64,000 nt of DNA from Bifidobacterium sp. WK012_4_13 (GTDB lineage: Bacteria; Actinomycetota; Actinomycetes; Actinomycetales; Bifidobacteriaceae). Position 1 is the stretch's first letter; every line of letters begins with the position of its first letter. The DNA is taken from contig NZ_CP129683.1 of the NCBI RefSeq assembly GCF_041080835.1, positions 1,302,001 through 1,366,000 on the forward strand, read 5' to 3'. Below, piece after piece: positions 22,879-30,276 of the stretch. The notes beneath the pieces are model-generated. The model did no database searches and was not told where the DNA came from. It was given only the letters and a program-made list of their open reading frames with translations. Both the position numbers and the translations under genes were made by a program.

Positions 22879-23577
22879 ATGGGGAAAGCAGAGAAATCAA
22901 AGAATAGCAGGACGACACGTTCAAGCCGGGCGATGGTTCATCATTCCGGCAGAGGCTTCCGGGCATTTGCCGCAATCGTCACCACCTTGGCGATTGGCTG
23001 GGCCCTGGTCGGCTGTGGATCGAGCGAGTCCGCAGACTCGACTGCGACCTCTGGAGAAGGCAATCCATCGACGACGGCGAGTTCGTCTCCCGACAGCGAC
23101 TCATCATCGGCTTCCGGCACTTCGTCGACCTCATCGCCCGCAACGACAGCGGACGGCACATGCGCGACGTCGCAGCTCACGGCCACGGTCAGCACAGGCA
23201 GTGGCGGCGGTGCTGGGAGCCTGTATCCATATATCGTGCTGACCAACCACGGCAGTGCCTGCGCGATCGGCGGATATCCCGGGGTGTCACTCGCCGCTTC
23301 CGGCAAGCAGATCGGCGCCGCGGCTGTCCGCGAGTCGGGAAGCTCGACGACATTGACCTTGCAGAGGGGGCAGTCAGCCTATTCGGCATTGCAAATCACC
23401 CAAGCTGCGAATCTCTCGGAATCTGCATGCAAGCCCACTCAGGCAGACAGCGTCGTGATATATCCACCTAATCAAAAAACCTCGATATCCGTTGCGAACA
23501 AAGACTTCACGGGTTGCGCGAACGCCGGTACGGCGATAGTCCGCGTCAAGCCGCTTCAGGCTGGAACCGGTCAGTGA
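22879..23577 (+). CDS. DUF4232-type lipoprotein
   Basis: A 232-residue exported lipoprotein. After a basic N-terminus and hydrophobic segment there is the lipobox LVGC with Cys46, a Ser/Thr/Ala-rich linker (about 48-92), then a beta-rich domain with four cysteines beginning CATSQLTATVSTG...YPYIVLTNHGSACAIGGYPGVSL. This matches the DUF4232 domain common in actinobacterial lipoproteins, whose function is unknown. The start may also be ATG 22933, which leaves a standard-length signal. Separated from the FtsX-type permease by 188 bp, so co-transcription is not assured. Confidence 0.75.
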   Translation: MGKAEKSKNSRTTRSSRAMVHHSGRGFRAFAAIVTTLAIGWALVGCGSSESADSTATSGEGNPSTTASSSPDSDSSSASGTSSTSSPATTADGTCATSQLTATVSTGSGGGAGSLYPYIVLTNHGSACAIGGYPGVSLAASGKQIGAAAVRESGSSTTLTLQRGQSAYSALQITQAANLSESACKPTQADSVVIYPPNQKTSISVANKDFTGCANAGTAIVRVKPLQAGTGQ

Positions 23578-23765: not shown

Positions 23766-25226
23766 ATGTTCATTCTCAAAGAGGCATGGGGTTCAATCGC
23801 ACGCCATAAGGTTTTGAGCGTGGTCTCTGTGACGACAACGGTCGTTGTCACCGCGGCGACGCTGATGGGATTAGCCATTGTCCAGGCTGACACCAACGCG
23901 CAGACGACGACGTACAACGCTCAGAAAGTCAATGCGATCATCAGCCTCGACAAGGCAAAAATCGAGAAGGCGAACAAGACAAAGAACGTTGACTGGAGCA
24001 AATACGAACTCAGCTGGGAGAAATACAGCACCTATGCCGAGGCCGCAGGCGTGACGATCAACGCCTATTACTATGAGACCGCGGATGCCAAGCTGTCGGG
24101 AGACACAAAGACCGTTTCCGGCACCAGCGACACGAAGAGCAGCGCCGAGCGCGGACAGATTTCGATTGTAAGCACCTCGTCCAAGGCAGCGACCGCATCC
24201 TTGCCTGACTCAGGATTCACCCTTGTTTCGGGAAAGACGGTCGACTACACCGGAACCACGATAAGCAACAAGGCAGTGGTGTCTCAAAGCTTCGCAAAGG
24301 CCAATGATTACAAGGTCGGCAGCAAGTTCAAGCTCGTGAACCCAAGCAATGCCAAGAAGACGATAGAGATGACCGTCAGCGGCATCTACAAGGACCATGC
24401 GAGTTCATCAAAGCTTTCGACGAAATACTCAGATGCCAGCAACGCGAACAATGCAATTTATGTCAGTTCATACACCTTCATGGGCAACGGATTCTATTCG
24501 GCCACGAAACCCGGAAGCATAGGGCATGTCTTACGAATCGTCTTTGAGCTCTCGAGCCCGAAGGACTACAACACATTCGTGAAGAAGTCCCGTGCAGCAG
24601 GGCTGGGGAGCAATTACATCATCAGCTCTCCGACGCTCGCACAGTACCAGGCAAAGGTGGCCCCGCTGACGACCCTGGCAAAGGTGATGAAGGTCACGGT
24701 CATTGCGATCGGCGCACTTGGAGCGATCGTTCTTCTGATCTGCCTCATTCTCTCATGGAAGCGTCGCAACGAGGATATTGGCATGCTTGTCGGCATCGGC
24801 GTCGGCAGGGCGAGGATTTCCTGGCGCTATTCAGTCGAATTGCTGATGATCACCATCCCAGGAACCATTGTCGGTTTCGGCATCGGCGTCGGACTCAGCT
24901 TTGCAATCGCCGGGGTGCTGCCAGCATCCGGCATCGTCCGCGCAACGCCTGACATGACATTGATGAAGTATGTGGCAATCGGCGGCGTCGCATTGTGGGC
25001 GCTCTGCATCATCGCAGCGATTGTGCGCGTGGCATCGTTCCGAATGAACACCTTGCTCGGGCCGGCAACCTATGAATCGGTTGCAGATCATGAAGTCGCC
25101 GACGGCGAAGACACGGATCATGAGAGCGGAATCGAAGATGACGAGCCGACAGAATCCGAAGACAAGAACAGCGAAGACAATCACGCAGCAACCACGGGGA
25201 CTCACAAGGAAGGGGTATCCGCATGA
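23766..25226 (+). CDS. FtsX/MacB-type ABC permease with acidic tail
   Basis: A 486-residue membrane protein with the FtsX/MacB plan: an N-terminal helix (about 16-40, VVSVTTTVVVTAATLMGLA), a large extracytoplasmic domain (about 41-305), three C-terminal helices (from VTVIAIGALGAIVLLICLIL) and a cytosolic motif WKRRNEDIGMLVGIGVG between the first two, where the partner ATPase normally docks. The last ~50 residues are a very acidic tail (ADHEVADGEDTDHES...). ATG 23766 has GGAG 9 nt upstream. It overlaps the next gene by ATGA, so the two are translationally coupled. Such permeases usually drive mechanotransmission or lipoprotein/peptide export rather than solute import. Confidence 0.85.
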   Translation: MFILKEAWGSIARHKVLSVVSVTTTVVVTAATLMGLAIVQADTNAQTTTYNAQKVNAIISLDKAKIEKANKTKNVDWSKYELSWEKYSTYAEAAGVTINAYYYETADAKLSGDTKTVSGTSDTKSSAERGQISIVSTSSKAATASLPDSGFTLVSGKTVDYTGTTISNKAVVSQSFAKANDYKVGSKFKLVNPSNAKKTIEMTVSGIYKDHASSSKLSTKYSDASNANNAIYVSSYTFMGNGFYSATKPGSIGHVLRIVFELSSPKDYNTFVKKSRAAGLGSNYIISSPTLAQYQAKVAPLTTLAKVMKVTVIAIGALGAIVLLICLILSWKRRNEDIGMLVGIGVGRARISWRYSVELLMITIPGTIVGFGIGVGLSFAIAGVLPASGIVRATPDMTLMKYVAIGGVALWALCIIAAIVRVASFRMNTLLGPATYESVADHEVADGEDTDHESGIEDDEPTESEDKNSEDNHAATTGTHKEGVSA

Positions 25227-26497
25227 AATCCGAAGAAGTTGAAGACGACAATGGTTCATTGAACGATTCACTGGATGAGAAATCGACTGACATCAATGAC
25301 ACTGATATCAGTGACTCCGAGAAGCTTGCCGACGATTCCGTCGGAGAGCCAGTGCAATCCGACGATGGCGAGGAATCGGATGACTCATCCGCAGCCGACG
25401 ATGGCGAGGAAAACGACGAAGAGGTGAATTTCTCCATCGTATTTGAGGATGATGAAGAGGACGAAGACGCAGACAAGGACGAAGACGAACATTCTCAGGA
25501 TGCTGATGGCACATCGGCAGAACAGCCAGAAGCCGATTCAGAGAACGATTCAGTCAGCATCTCAGCGGCGTCGAAATCCCTGAATTCGAAAACCGTCTCC
25601 AAAACCCCTGAGGAAGCCGAAAAGCCTGCTTCGGATAGGAATGGGCACACGATCGCTGAATCATCTTCAGCGCCGCTCTCCACCCAAGAAAATCGATCCA
25701 AGGCACAGACTCAAGCACAGGCGCATACACAGACACACACGAAGCCGAAACCTTCCAGATCGAGAGACCTGTCCGAAGATTCCCTCCATGTCGTGTCACA
25801 GAAAATCAACAGACGCATCCGTCATCTTCGGCGAACGCGATTCGAGCAATACCCGATTCTTGCCTTCAACAAGGTCACATACACACTCAGACACGAACGA
25901 TTCGATCTCTTGAACAAGGTGGATTGGGCCTTCTACAACTCGCGAGTACAGAGTGTGCTGATCCGTTCAGATGACGAACGTCGCGCGGTGGTGGCACTGG
26001 GATCTGGCATGAGGACACCGAATCATGGAACGATTACCTTCCATGGCAAGGACATCCAGGAAATGGAACCGAATGAGTTCCGCCGCCATAACATCGGCGT
26101 GCTGTTCGAACACTTCAATCTGCGGAGTGAACTGACGGCGAGCGAAAACATCGTGCTGACGATGGATGTTTCGGGTCGCAACTTCCTCAAGCCAATGCCG
26201 GTTCTGGCTGCAGAACTGCTCAATCAGGTCCAGTTCCCGGACGACCAGTTCGACACCCCTGTCGGACAGCTCAGTCTGCTGAATCAGCGCAAGGCTCAAC
26301 TCGCTCGGGCTCTGAGCTGCGATGCCAGCATCATTCTTGCCGACGAACCGACGCTGGGTCTTGATGACGAAGACACGGAAACGATTCTCGATGTGATGCG
26401 ATTCCTGGCCGACAAGAAATCAAAATGCATGATTATCGTGACCGCCGATGAGGATCTTGCCGCGCAGACCGACGCGATCATCTATACCGATGACTGA
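25223..26497 (+). CDS. Degenerate ABC ATPase homologue with long acidic extension
   Basis: A 424-residue protein. Residues 1-190 are disordered and strongly acidic (Asp/Glu/Ser). Residues 207-424 align with LolD/MacB-type nucleotide-binding domains, but nearly every nucleotide motif is altered. The P-loop position reads RSDDERRAV (248-256), with no glycines and Arg where Lys is expected. The Q-loop glutamine is Glu296 (LFEHF), LSGGQ is LSLLN (350-354), and the switch His is Ala408 (VTADED). Only Walker B, SIILADEPT (369-377), is intact. Reading frame and Walker B conservation argue against a pseudogene. It probably acts as a structural or regulatory partner of the coupled permease, or pairs with a separate active ATPase; that part is inference. 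Confidence 0.85.
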   Translation: MKSEEVEDDNGSLNDSLDEKSTDINDTDISDSEKLADDSVGEPVQSDDGEESDDSSAADDGEENDEEVNFSIVFEDDEEDEDADKDEDEHSQDADGTSAEQPEADSENDSVSISAASKSLNSKTVSKTPEEAEKPASDRNGHTIAESSSAPLSTQENRSKAQTQAQAHTQTHTKPKPSRSRDLSEDSLHVVSQKINRRIRHLRRTRFEQYPILAFNKVTYTLRHERFDLLNKVDWAFYNSRVQSVLIRSDDERRAVVALGSGMRTPNHGTITFHGKDIQEMEPNEFRRHNIGVLFEHFNLRSELTASENIVLTMDVSGRNFLKPMPVLAAELLNQVQFPDDQFDTPVGQLSLLNQRKAQLARALSCDASIILADEPTLGLDDEDTETILDVMRFLADKKSKCMIIVTADEDLAAQTDAIIYTDD

Positions 26498-26512
26498 TCT
26501 GCGGCTCTTCGA

Positions 26513-26571
26513 CGCATGTGCCCTGTCAGTCTGGTCAGGTTGTTTCTTGCCAGACTGACAGGGCACATGCG
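26513..26571 (+). terminator. 22-bp perfect hairpin after the ABC pair
   Basis: Arms 26513-26534 and 26550-26571 (CGCATGTGCCCTGTCAG... and its complement) enclose a 15-nt loop, 15 bp past the stop. Only a short A-rich, not T-rich, tail follows, so it may stabilise the mRNA 3' end as much as terminate. Confidence 0.7.
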
Positions 26572-26609
26572 CATTGAAAGGTGATTGCGCTGCAGCGTTT
26601 CTCTCCACG

Positions 26610-26782: not shown

Positions 26783-27670
26783 ATGATTCACATGAAGCCT
26801 TCGATACGGAAATTTCTCGATGCAGCAGGGACATTCCAATGCCCCATATGCGGCGATGCCCTGGCTCCGTCAGGAACAAGTCTGCGATGCTCCCGCAATC
26901 ATACCTTTGACATCGCTGCAAAAGGCTATGCTTCATTTCTGAATTCTCACCGTGGGCATGACGGTCTGTACAGTCAATCATTCTTCGAAAATCGCAGCCA
27001 GGCACTGAGCACTGGACTCTACGACCATATAATCCGCAAGGTTGCCGAGGCAGTCATTCCGTGCATGCATTCGGATGGTTCAGCGTTGCTTGACGTTGGC
27101 TGCGGCGATGGGACGCTGACGAAGCAACTGCAGCGACTGGTCAATACAGCAGACGCAGCGGCGCCAGCAGTTCCCGAAGCATCGCTGTATGCCTGTGACA
27201 TTTCCGCCCCTGCGATTTCGATTGCGGCCCGAGGCGGTGGAAACATCCGATGGTTCATCGCAGATCTGGCTCAGCTGCCACTGTCAAATGGCTCAATGAA
27301 CGTGATCACCGACATTTTTTCACCCGCGAACTATGGAGAATTCAAACGAGTTCTCGTGCCCGATGGAAGACTGGTGAAAGTCGTGCCGGGAAAGAATCAC
27401 CTTGTTGAATTGCGAGAGACGATTGCCCATTCCCACCAGGAAAAGCCAGATGTCTATTCCAACGACGACGTGTTCCAGGGGATCGAGCGACACTGCACCA
27501 TTCGGCAGGTATCAAGCGCAACCGCAACGATTCCTCTCAGTTCCAAGCAGTGGGAACGGTTCCTCGCGATGACTCCGCTCATGTTCCACGTACGTCGGTC
27601 CTCAATCGATCTCGCATCGCTGCATGAGCTTACCATCGAGGCTGAAATCGTAGAGGCGACAATGAGATGA
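26783..27670 (+). CDS. rlmA: RlmA-type 23S rRNA guanine-N1 methyltransferase
   Basis: A 295-residue SAM-dependent methyltransferase of the RlmA/TlrB family, which methylates N1 of a guanine in helix 35 of 23S rRNA (G745 or G748 by lineage). The zinc finger is C20-x2-C23...C36-x3-H40 (CPICG, CSRNHTFD), followed by the family block AAKGYASFLNSH. The SAM site is LLDVGCGDGTLT at about 102-113, and DIFSPANYGEFKRVLVPDGRLVKVVPG is the typical late motif. ATG 26783 has AGAGGA just upstream; an internal ATG three codons on is possible. In Gram-positive hosts the G748 enzyme can influence macrolide response. Monocistronic by spacing. Confidence 0.85.
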   Translation: MIHMKPSIRKFLDAAGTFQCPICGDALAPSGTSLRCSRNHTFDIAAKGYASFLNSHRGHDGLYSQSFFENRSQALSTGLYDHIIRKVAEAVIPCMHSDGSALLDVGCGDGTLTKQLQRLVNTADAAAPAVPEASLYACDISAPAISIAARGGGNIRWFIADLAQLPLSNGSMNVITDIFSPANYGEFKRVLVPDGRLVKVVPGKNHLVELRETIAHSHQEKPDVYSNDDVFQGIERHCTIRQVSSATATIPLSSKQWERFLAMTPLMFHVRRSSIDLASLHELTIEAEIVEATMR

Positions 27671-27807: not shown

Positions 27808-28506
27808 CTACGAAAGCGCAGTGCCACCTTCGTCATTGAGCCGCGTAACCCTGATGCGCCTTGCCGCCGAAGCGCCGAGTGCGACCTTTGCACCCGATGG
27901 CAGAACCAGGGTAACTATGTCGGAATACGGGGTGAACTTGCCTATTGTGGCGCTGCCGTTGATGGAAAGCCCTTGCTGCTGAAGGAAGCGCAATAATTTC
28001 GGATCTTCGTCGCTGACTCGTTCGATACGCACCTTCACGCCCTCCGGCGCATCGGTCAGCAGTATGCTGCTGTCCTCTTCCATCTCTCCATTTGGTCCGG
28101 GAATCGCATCACCGTGAGGATCCTTCGTCGGACGGCCGAGACTTTCATCAATGCGCTCAATCATGAGATCCGATGCGGCATGTTCCAGCTGATCTGCCTC
28201 CTTATGGACTTCATCCCATCGATACCCGAGCTTCTCTACAAGAAAGGTCTCGAGCAGCCTGTGTCTGCGAACCATTTTCAAGGCGTACTGCTCACCTAGC
28301 GGCGTCAGGATGATATCTCCATATGGAGCGTGGGTGACCAATCCCTGCGTGGTCAGACGAGCCATCGCCCCGGACACCGTTGACGGCTTCATGCCGGTCT
28401 TTCGAGCAAGATCCGTTGGCTGAATCGCCTTGTCGGACCATTCGCGCAGATCCCAAAGCACCTTGAGATAGTCCTGCGAGTTCGTAGATAGCTCTTGAAA
28501 AGTCAT
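27808..28506 (-). CDS. DtxR/MntR-family metal-dependent repressor
   Basis: A 232-residue regulator with winged helix (about 1-70, LARKTGMKPSTVSGAMARL), dimerisation/metal domain, and C-terminal SH3-like FeoA domain. The metal ligands line up with DtxR His79, Glu83, His98, Cys102 and His106 as His82, Glu86, His101, Asp105 and His109 (VHKEADQLEH). The Cys102 position is Asp here, and acidic residues at that site are typical of manganese-sensing MntR proteins, so manganese is the likelier co-repressor. It is divergent from mntH, the expected target. ATG 28506 begins MTFQELS; the frame extends 46 codons further upstream without protein character. Confidence 0.9.
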   Translation of the reverse strand: MTFQELSTNSQDYLKVLWDLREWSDKAIQPTDLARKTGMKPSTVSGAMARLTTQGLVTHAPYGDIILTPLGEQYALKMVRRHRLLETFLVEKLGYRWDEVHKEADQLEHAASDLMIERIDESLGRPTKDPHGDAIPGPNGEMEEDSSILLTDAPEGVKVRIERVSDEDPKLLRFLQQQGLSINGSATIGKFTPYSDIVTLVLPSGAKVALGASAARRIRVTRLNDEGGTALS

Positions 28507-28555
28507 GCTGTACAGTCTAACCAATGTCGCCGTTTTGATGCTGAAAGGTTCATAT

Positions 28556-28587
28556 CTCAATGCATTCCTTACAATTTCTGCATTGAG
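28556..28587. promoter_or_regulatory. Inverted repeat between mntR-like gene and mntH
   Basis: CTCAATGCA (28556-28564) and TGCATTGAG (28579-28587) are perfect 9-bp arms with a 14-bp spacer, 50 bp upstream of the repressor start. Candidate operator or leader hairpin in the 315-bp divergent region; I see no Mn riboswitch there. Confidence 0.4.
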
Positions 28588-28821
28588 ACTCCTATGCGCG
28601 AAAACCCCTGTGCGAGGTCCTACAGGGAAGCGTCCACGAGCCATCTCCCATCACGATGATCCCGCAGCGAAAGGCATGGTCAGACTTGATTCGTGGATGG
28701 TTACGCGAAATCGAAAACTTCGTTAACGGATTGTGTCATCACTCGCATTCCATGCATATCCGTCTATACTTCGAGGGGTAGAACTAAATTGTTTGAGGGC
28801 TACGATTCAGGGATGGGGATA

Positions 28822-30276
28822 ATGAGCGACACGTCAGCGGCAACAGAGACTTCTACGAAGGAACGAAGCGGGAAATTGGGCGGTTCCGAATCAAGGATCT
28901 TCAGCAGAGGCAAGTTGATTGAGACGGCCAATGGCCTCTCACTCGAAGAGATCAATGCAACGGTAAGCATTCCAAAGGCAAGTCACAGCTTCTGGAAAAG
29001 CCTCATTGCATTCTCGGGACCCGGCGCACTGGTTGCCGTCGGGTACATGGATCCAGGAAACTGGATCACGTCTATCGGCGGTGGCGCACAATATGGCTAT
29101 CTCCTGATGTCAGTGATTCTGCTTTCCAGCCTCATCGCAATGCTGCTGCAATATATGTGCGCAAAGCTTGGCATCGTCGCAGGCCTTGACCTGGCTCAGG
29201 CGACGCGTCTTCATACCGGTAGAAAGACGGGAATCGTCCTCTGGATCACCACTGAACTGGCAGTCATGGCAACCGATATCGCAGAGGTGATCGGTGGCGC
29301 AATCGCCTTGAACCTGCTTTTCGGCATTCCACTTGCCGTCGGCGTGGTTCTCACCGTGTTCGATGTGCTGCTCCTGCTGCTGCTCATGCAGGTCGGGTTC
29401 AGACGCATCGAGGCAATCGTCGTGACCCTGATCCTGGTCATCATGGCCGTCTTCGTCTATGAGGTATGGCTGGCACAGCCGAACGTCGGCGCTGTGTTCG
29501 CCGGCTTCATCCCGAACTCACAGATTTTCGGCAATGGTCAGCTCACCATGGCGTTGGGCATCGTGGGCGCAACCGTGATGCCGCACAACCTGTATCTTCA
29601 CTCATCGATCGTTCAGACACGCAATTACGACCGCAAGGACGATCGGGAGGTCAGCAACGCGCTTCGCTTCGCCACCTGGGACTCGAACATTCAGCTCACG
29701 GCAGCGTTCGTCGTGAACTGCCTGCTGCTCGTTCTTGGCGCGGCAATGTTCTTTGGCCATGGTGATGGCCTCGACACATTCACATCCCTCTACAATGCTC
29801 TCGGCGACAGCAGACTCGCAGGCCCCGTCGCCAGCGGTGCTCTCAGCACGCTATTCGCAGTCGCGCTGCTCGCATCCGGTCAGAATTCAACGATCACGGG
29901 CACGCTCACCGGGCAGATTGTGATGGAGGGCTTCATTCGAATGCGCATTCCAATGTGGCTTCGGCGTGTGGTTACCAGAGTTATTTCGATAATCCCAGTG
30001 CTTGTCTGCACCTTCGCGTTCGGTGGGACGGAGTCTGCACTTGACAACCTGCTGATCTATTCCCAGGTGTTCCTCTGCATCGCATTGCCCATCTCCATGG
30101 TGCCTCTGGTCTGGTTCACCTCATCAAAGAAAATCATGGGCAGGAAATATGCCAACCCGCTTTGGATGTCGATTCTTGCCTGGATCGTCGTTGCGGTGCT
30201 GTCAGGCCTGAACGTCTGGCTGATCGTACAGGACATACAGCAGCTGATTGCATTCCTGCGACCACTTCCGCTGTAA
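28822..30276 (+). CDS. mntH: NRAMP manganese/divalent metal transporter
   Basis: A 484-residue proton-coupled divalent metal importer of the NRAMP family, about 11 helices. The metal-site helices are visible: GYMDPGNWITSIGGG (DPGN in helix 1) and GATVMPHNLYLHSSIVQTR (MPHN in helix 6), with the cytosolic loop block GQNSTITGTLTGQIVMEGF. A 60-residue hydrophilic N-terminal tail precedes helix 1. ATG 28822 is preferred since GGGGA lies 3-4 nt upstream; upstream in-frame codons are outside any likely leader. Divergent from the DtxR/MntR-type repressor and followed by a strong terminator. Confidence 0.95.
   Translation: MSDTSAATETSTKERSGKLGGSESRIFSRGKLIETANGLSLEEINATVSIPKASHSFWKSLIAFSGPGALVAVGYMDPGNWITSIGGGAQYGYLLMSVILLSSLIAMLLQYMCAKLGIVAGLDLAQATRLHTGRKTGIVLWITTELAVMATDIAEVIGGAIALNLLFGIPLAVGVVLTVFDVLLLLLLMQVGFRRIEAIVVTLILVIMAVFVYEVWLAQPNVGAVFAGFIPNSQIFGNGQLTMALGIVGATVMPHNLYLHSSIVQTRNYDRKDDREVSNALRFATWDSNIQLTAAFVVNCLLLVLGAAMFFGHGDGLDTFTSLYNALGDSRLAGPVASGALSTLFAVALLASGQNSTITGTLTGQIVMEGFIRMRIPMWLRRVVTRVISIIPVLVCTFAFGGTESALDNLLIYSQVFLCIALPISMVPLVWFTSSKKIMGRKYANPLWMSILAWIVVAVLSGLNVWLIVQDIQQLIAFLRPLPL

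Follow-up and report, generated by a model that had tools for sequence, protein, structure and literature searches.

An ABC nucleotide-binding domain homologue without most of its ATP-site motifs is conserved beside a type VII permease in Bifidobacteriaceae

Introduction

Can an ATP-binding cassette (ABC) complex be maintained when the only nucleotide-binding domain (NBD) encoded with its permease has lost the motifs of an ATP site? This question is raised by two overlapping genes within a 64,000-nucleotide stretch of the genome of Bifidobacterium sp. WK012_4_13 (contig NZ_CP129683.1, positions 1,302,001 to 1,366,000, forward strand), which we refer to as the window and whose numbering is used throughout. 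An earlier note, made from the sequence alone, had described the second gene as an ABC ATPase homologue with an intact Walker B motif and without its P-loop, Q-loop glutamine, signature and switch histidine, and had proposed that it is the dedicated, non-hydrolysing partner of an FtsX/MacB-type permease. Our analysis of this protein, hereafter the dead NBD with reference to its lost motifs, leads us to an answer that we favor as moderately probable: the two genes would encode a type VII ABC complex that works independently of ATP, the dead NBD serving as an anchor for the permease and the N-terminal arm of this NBD recruiting a cytosolic partner.

Loss of ATP-site motifs in the window protein

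The features on which the argument draws are as follows.

23766-25226, plus strand: ABC permease of type VII (MacB/LolC/E-type), partner of the dead NBD (Pfam FtsX, AlphaFold, Foldseek)
24762-24830, plus strand: predicted coupling-helix region of the permease, RRNEDIGMLVGIGVGRARISWRY (short model helix and residue counts)
25223-26497, plus strand: dead NBD protein, 424 amino acids (open reading frame (ORF), translation, orthologues)
25223-25780, plus strand: acidic N-terminal arm, predicted disordered, residues 1-186 (AlphaFold predicted local distance difference test (pLDDT) scores, composition)
25427-25462, plus strand: conserved short motif of the arm, NFSIVFEDDEED, residues 69-80 (pattern found in 81 of 83 arms)
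25781-25834, plus strand: predicted helix directly before the NBD, residues 187-204 (AlphaFold helix 187-203)
25961-25984, plus strand: former Walker A motif or P-loop, IRSDDERR, residues 247-254 (aligned to GPSGAGKT of paralogue L002)
26105-26119, plus strand: former Q-loop, FEHFN, with Glu296 (alignment)
26270-26287, plus strand: former signature, LSLLNQ, residues 350-355 (alignment)
26330-26353, plus strand: retained Walker B motif, IILADEPT, residues 370-377 (alignment)
26435-26449, plus strand: former H-loop, IVTAD, with Ala408 (alignment)

The window protein, an acidic disordered arm followed by a MacB-like NBD fold in one open frame, is an ABC NBD homologue. Pfam ABC_tran matches it at 53.7 bits, covering only profile positions 32-136 of 137 and leaving the Walker A part unmatched, and the same family was found in all 54 dead proteins scanned. 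The AlphaFold model is confident from about residue 210 onward, and its best Foldseek match is E. coli MacB (5lj9; TM-score by target 0.83). When the protein is aligned to the paralogue L002, the closest canonical protein encoded in its own genome, the P-loop GPSGAGKT is replaced by IRSDDERR, the Q-loop FQSFN by FEHFN, the signature LSGGEQ by LSLLNQ and the H-loop THS by TAD, while the Walker B motif is intact. The A-loop aromatic is also gone: Leu222 stands where 27 of 27 canonical paralogues have Tyr, which is not within the six commonest residues at this position in 95 dead NBDs. All P-loop glycines and the Ser/Thr are missing from the window protein, along with the A-loop aromatic, the signature and the switch His. 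Each substitution named in the earlier note, the intact Walker B motif and the ATGA overlap with the permease gene were found where it had placed them.

Distribution across Bifidobacteriaceae

Among 189 Bifidobacteriaceae genomes, in which dead and canonical forms were assigned by reading the sequence because profile scores overlap a little (dead forms score as low as 189 bits and canonical ones as high as 248), a recognisable orthologue is present in 137, full-length in 136 and broken in one (G057). By genus, the carriers are 27 of 27 genomes in g1, 100 of 112 in g5, 9 of 9 in g6 and the single genome of g14; the window's genus (27 genomes) has the gene in every genome, and in the other 12 genera of the family no dead orthologue was recognised. 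For the 52 non-carriers, the best match was read in 29 and was canonical in all of them; in 14 others the best match, which was not read, scores no more than 116 bits, and nine have no match at E <= 1e-20. The g5 genomes without the gene are mostly of 1.5-1.8 Mb.

The full NBD was read in 136 carriers (95 plus 41 further genomes; several residue counts below use the 95). The Walker A Lys is present in none of them (0 of 137 with the broken copy) and is replaced by Arg in 96, His in 30, Gln in 4, Leu in 4 and Val in 2. The pattern GxxGxGK[ST] occurs in 0 of 95 dead NBDs versus 27 of 27 canonical paralogues, all of which are intact as aligned. Taken one by one, the three P-loop glycines are retained in no more than 3, 4 and 9 of the 95, and the Thr in 7. 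The LSGGQ signature is absent from all 95, from the 41 further genomes and from the broken copy, and the switch His from all 136. Since 136 full-length orthologues share these losses, recent decay or a sequencing error at the window locus is ruled out. Of the two findings that the earlier note would have taken as a refutation, neither was made: no orthologue has an intact P-loop, and the frame of the window gene is open, with no frameshift across 25940-26000. The Q-loop calls for a refinement: the loss of Gln is real in the window (Glu296; Glu in 3 of 136) but local, Gln being kept in 104 of 136. In the Walker B motif, Asp is present in 131 of the 136 and Glu in 109.

The G057 copy (L374, G057:C22) has neither Walker A nor signature, and its frame stops after the former signature and before Walker B; it adjoins an intact-looking open permease frame, and its truncation may stem either from gene decay in that species or from misassembly. 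As a separate observation, one Bifidobacterium subgroup (L092, L096, L100, L104, L115, L117 and relatives) carries long, low-complexity acidic insertions or tails at the former H-loop, as if the C-terminal part of its dead NBD were free to drift.

Beyond the family, a species-wide scan with one peptide pattern found 86 relatives, of which 80 loci were kept; 79 belong to bifidobacteria or Bombiscardovia and have dead motifs throughout, and the 80th, which comes from an alphaproteobacterium, is canonical. A search of 396 genomes at the level of the order (at least 35 of them from the same family; four candidates scored per genome) gave matches at E <= 1e-38 in 15 genomes from outside the family, all scoring 148.3 bits or less, and the two of these that were read (L235, L236) are canonical. 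In a protein collection with seven matches at E <= 1e-20, four were read, P0004 being dead and P0005-P0007 canonical. From these searches, which did not go through other phyla genome by genome, a wide spread of the dead NBD was rejected.

Origin and selection

A tree built from 35 dead NBDs together with 27 canonical paralogues and 8 others places the dead NBDs on one side of a branch with a Shimodaira-Hasegawa-like approximate likelihood ratio test (SH-aLRT) support of 100 (87 for the canonical side), and the canonical paralogue is the group nearest to them; three long end branches were flagged (one outgroup row and the dead rows L123 and L099). The split persists without the catalytic columns (FastTree; 161 columns, 95 plus 27 rows), with long-branch warnings, the long branch of canonical row L286 meeting the dead clade. 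Because the dead NBDs are one clade in both trees, the motifs were most probably lost a single time. L123 (G184), which has diverged furthest of the dead orthologues in the tree, sits on a long branch; as a member of a separate genus (g14), it could help to date the loss.

The dead NBD is under purifying selection. The ratio of nonsynonymous to synonymous substitution rates (dN/dS) over the NBD has a median of 0.06 in 66 asteroides-group pairs and of 0.12 in 194 usable of 199 pairs with more than 75% identity, compared with 0.17 for the canonical NBD in 58 usable of 87 pairs; all of these come from pairs closer than the window and its nearest relatives, for which dS is saturated (1.8-1.9). Pooled over all NBD sites, the dead form evolves slightly faster (0.152 vs 0.126). 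The former Walker A (0.234) and signature (0.342) are faster than the dead NBD overall, whereas the same sites are nearly frozen in the paralogue (0.003 and 0.005). The judgement in the earlier note that decay is unlikely agrees with the open frame, the low dN/dS and the shared losses.

Pairing with the permease

The permease scores just over the Pfam FtsX cut-off (25.7 against 25.5 bits). Its AlphaFold model (mean pLDDT 81.6) has four helices of transmembrane length and a large extracellular domain, and its Foldseek matches are 5xu1, LolE and MacB. A short helix of the model at residues 337-345 lies at the place of the coupling helix (permease numbering starts at nucleotide 23760, two codons ahead of the likely ATG; a Met-Phe start is invariant across 45 aligned permeases).

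In the window, the ATG of the dead NBD gene at 25223 overlaps the permease stop codon (ATGA). All 56 dead loci examined have, like the window, a permease immediately upstream in the same orientation, and the four-base overlap recurs in 48 of the 56, with start codons chosen for their nearness to the permease stop. Clustering of gene neighbours at 79 loci, which used a greedy ORF picker and also kept antisense frames, recovered the permease in 61 and the NBD in 63 and gave no third constant same-strand neighbour; no second NBD was found within about 3 kb of the 56 dead loci.

Residues near the coupling helix appear conserved and re-specialised on both sides of the expected interface. On the permease side, column counts over 57 dead-partner and 26 canonical-partner permeases were used in place of a first, too strict pattern that had matched 5 of 60. 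Among dead-partner permeases, G347 is present in 57 of 57 and R336, Q356 and E360 in 56 each, the window permease being the lone exception at Q356; Trp355 occurs in 53 of 57, where 18 of 26 canonical-partner permeases have Ala. On the NBD side, eight sites are fixed differently in dead and canonical forms (288, 301, 306, 319, 338, 356, 366 and 392). Four of these lie within 288-319 (G288 in 87 of 95, R301 in 86, A306 in 89 and R319 in 95), and L322, mostly Asp in the paralogues, is present in 95 of 95. The window protein agrees with the dead family at most of these sites. We place the stretch 288-319/322 around the Q-loop and the membrane-facing helical subdomain. Dedication of the dead NBD to its permease, as the earlier note had proposed, is supported by this constant adjacency, the start/stop overlap and the conserved coupling-helix residues.

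The acidic N-terminal arm

Residues 1-186 are predicted to be disordered, with no secondary structure and pLDDT values of 43-63 per ten-residue block up to residue 190; Asp and Glu make up 59 of residues 1-209. The N-termini of three canonical paralogues compared by eye are shorter. Across 83 orthologues, arm length spans 58 to 397 residues, the median acidic fraction is 0.275, and much of the arm drifts freely: the arms align poorly outside the NBD-proximal stretch and a single motif, which in the window reads NFSIVFEDDEED. The pattern [FYVI]x[IVF][VIETF][FYI][DE], which was written after viewing the sequences and covers 83 of the 137 carriers, occurs in 81 of the 83 arms (missing in L099 and L125), versus a mean of 0.56 and a maximum of 3 arms in 200 composition-keeping shuffles that ignore relatedness. 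A stricter DNA version matched the dead NBD gene in 10 of 10 genomes, and its reversed control matched none; three of the ten genomes have one extra match, which in the window's genome lies inside a leucyl-tRNA synthetase, judged by sequence. A loose pattern for the helix stretch before the NBD matched only 55 of 83. The arm motif resembles a docking strand with acidic residues after it.

Neighbouring genes

Sixteen bases past the stop codon of the dead NBD gene lies a strong hairpin.

26514-26570, plus strand: strong hairpin (folding energy)

It is a near-perfect inverted repeat with 21-base arms, and the region 26498-26590 has a minimum free energy of -58.7 kcal/mol (z -8.3). No other genomic occurrence of 18 bases of each arm was found at up to 3 mismatches. 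The hairpin is missing from the list of a terminator scan, and the promoter and terminator scan performed overall at about chance level. It possibly marks the end of the two-gene unit.

Upstream of the permease, on the same strand, 22879-23577 encodes a DUF4232 protein (92 bits) with a lipobox-like VGC seen by eye. Beyond the hairpin, 26783-27670 encodes an RlmA-type rRNA methyltransferase (zinc ribbon plus methyltransferase), and an RlmA-like gene is, by eye, also next in the loci of the five nearest relatives (L009-L013). An operon with either neighbour was rejected, since neither was found within about 3 kb in loci L067-L126. Further on, 27808-30276 holds an ordinary metal-homeostasis pair, a divergent regulator of the iron-dependent-repressor type with a FeoA domain and an Nramp metal transporter. 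An anti-phage system was also rejected; the sole PADLOC match is a partial mad3 (E 8.6e-10) covering the ABC fold.

Discussion

According to the excerpt of PMC7756269 on which we draw, one ATP site is built from the Walker A and B motifs and the A-, Q- and H-loops of one NBD together with the signature of the other. Because the dead NBD has lost both contributions, no complete ATP site would form in a homodimer or with an intact partner. In the ATP-independent complex that we favor, the permease would form the membrane and extracellular part, and the NBD homologue, keeping its fold and the surface expected to hold the coupling helix, would act as a fixed cytosolic anchor or adaptor. The acidic arm would recruit a cytosolic partner through its one strand-like motif, and the extracellular domain would bind a partner or ligand in the envelope; a regulatory or scaffolding role, as the earlier note had suggested, would fit this arrangement. 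The motif loss, the single clade, purifying selection, the pairing at every locus checked, the conserved residues flanking the expected interface and the arm motif are shown here, whereas the lack of nucleotide binding, the docking itself, the scaffold or adaptor role and both partners are inferred. More tentatively, and with a little less than even confidence, we propose that these genes represent an ancient lineage of ABC complexes that uses no nucleotide, with a pseudoenzyme NBD and an arm whose docking motif serves as input, so that the complex may pass information or hold partners across the membrane without ATP.

Several points weigh against this interpretation. The Walker B Asp and Glu and mostly the Q-loop Gln persist and are not obviously needed structurally. 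The window protein differs from the rest of the family in having Arg at G288 and Met at L392, and the G057 copy is cut off past the former signature. AlphaFold predicts neither folding nor docking for the arm motif, which two of 83 arms lack and whose pattern was chosen post hoc. Both partners and any ligand of the complex are putative.

The permease could instead be powered by a canonical NBD from another operon (e.g., G000:C1:682966), with the dead NBD as the regulatory half of an asymmetric pair. Asymmetric ABC pairs are common (PMC7756269, in excerpt), and the second NBDs of B. subtilis RbsA and NupO, each fused to another NBD, lack the Walker A Lys (PMC11466899, in excerpt). The window's genome encodes the canonical paralogue with its own permease as well as other FtsX-type permeases, and 78 of the 137 carriers have the paralogue. 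However, 59 of the 137 lack it at E <= 1e-60 (counted by hand), a test that covers the canonical paralogue and leaves room for pairing with a more distant NBD; moreover, with Walker A and signature both gone, neither composite site is whole even opposite an intact partner, and the coupling helix differs from that of canonical-partner permeases. We consider such borrowing unlikely.

A second alternative is that the NBD fold has been reused as a binding site for a ligand other than ATP, which would turn the complex into a sensor or transporter gated by that ligand. Consistent with such a site, 126 of 136 orthologues have Arg or His in place of the Lys, often preceded by an acidic residue, and the Walker B Asp is retained; the former P-loop, however, varies by lineage in length and sequence, unlike a conserved ligand site, and in close pairs changes faster than the NBD as a whole, which makes this alternative quite improbable. 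Slow or unusual ATP binding, giving a weak but real ATPase, would explain why the Walker B Asp-Glu and the Q-loop Gln persist in most species, and a Walker A Lys to Arg change is also found in ABCG5/G8 (PMC7756269, in excerpt); the joint loss of the other ATP-site elements in the window and the rarity of any P-loop glycine or Thr among the 95 orthologues leave it very little room. A gene in decay, retained by chance or because its translation is coupled to that of the permease, to which the lost catalytic motifs, the drifting arm and the broken G057 copy might point, is largely contradicted already by an NBD frame open in 136 of 137 carriers, low dN/dS, invariant new residues (R319 and L322) and a deep single clade, and we give it almost no weight.

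If the ATP-independent complex is correct, an ATP-binding label conceals a pseudoenzyme common to most of the bifidobacteria examined: NCBI gives the name ATP-binding cassette domain protein to three of the four close relatives found in the protein collection. The pair would also offer a natural test of how much of a type VII ABC machine can run without ATP, which is a current question for FtsEX. The genus matters in medicine and food, and the availability of more than 100 orthologues, of a canonical sister that many of these cells also carry and of a conserved arm motif makes it possible to design partner searches and knock-outs immediately.

Comparison with known systems

The closest comparison is the canonical paralogue pair (G000:C1:682966, L002), which has the same order of permease and NBD and 37% identity to the dead NBD. 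It differs in its intact GPSGAGKT, LSGGEQ, DEPT and THS motifs and its shorter N-terminus, and its distribution (92 of 189 genomes at E <= 1e-60) is unlike that of the dead form. The MacB, LolCDE and 5xu1-type (type VII) systems share the NBD and permease folds of the dead pair. Their NBDs are ATPases, whereas the dead NBD is without every ATP-site motif except Walker B. By sequence and model, the pair would thus have a type VII ABC build while lacking the motifs that define ABC ATPases.

FtsEX has the same type VII build and is described as a signal transmitter rather than a transporter (PMC11627006, in excerpt). According to an excerpt of PMC7343993, E. coli FtsEX carries out its recruiting step on either side of the membrane without needing ATP hydrolysis, which suggests what a complex of the proposed kind could still do. 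The parallel is only partial, because the mutant studied there is thought to be still ATP-bound and blocks septal synthesis, so that it supports recruitment without ATP only in part. FtsE, in addition, is an ATPase whose hydrolysis is needed at a later step, and the dead NBD scores 82.5 bits against a cut-off of 264.85 for the FtsE equivalog model.

Pdr5, ABCG5/G8 and the RbsA/NupO fusions resemble the dead pair in having an NBD with a lost Walker A Lys, signature or switch residue, but they keep a second, canonical site from the partner NBD or the fused half (PMC7756269 and PMC11466899, in excerpt). In the dead pair, it is the unit's only NBD that has lost both contributions to the ATP site, and with Walker A and signature both gone it appears to fall outside the class of asymmetric ABC transporters with a degenerate site. 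The parts of this system are already known: a type VII permease, the NBD fold and degenerate NBDs. A search of open-licence PubMed Central literature found no paper on a stand-alone dead NBD that is family-wide, forms a single clade and is the only NBD of its operon.

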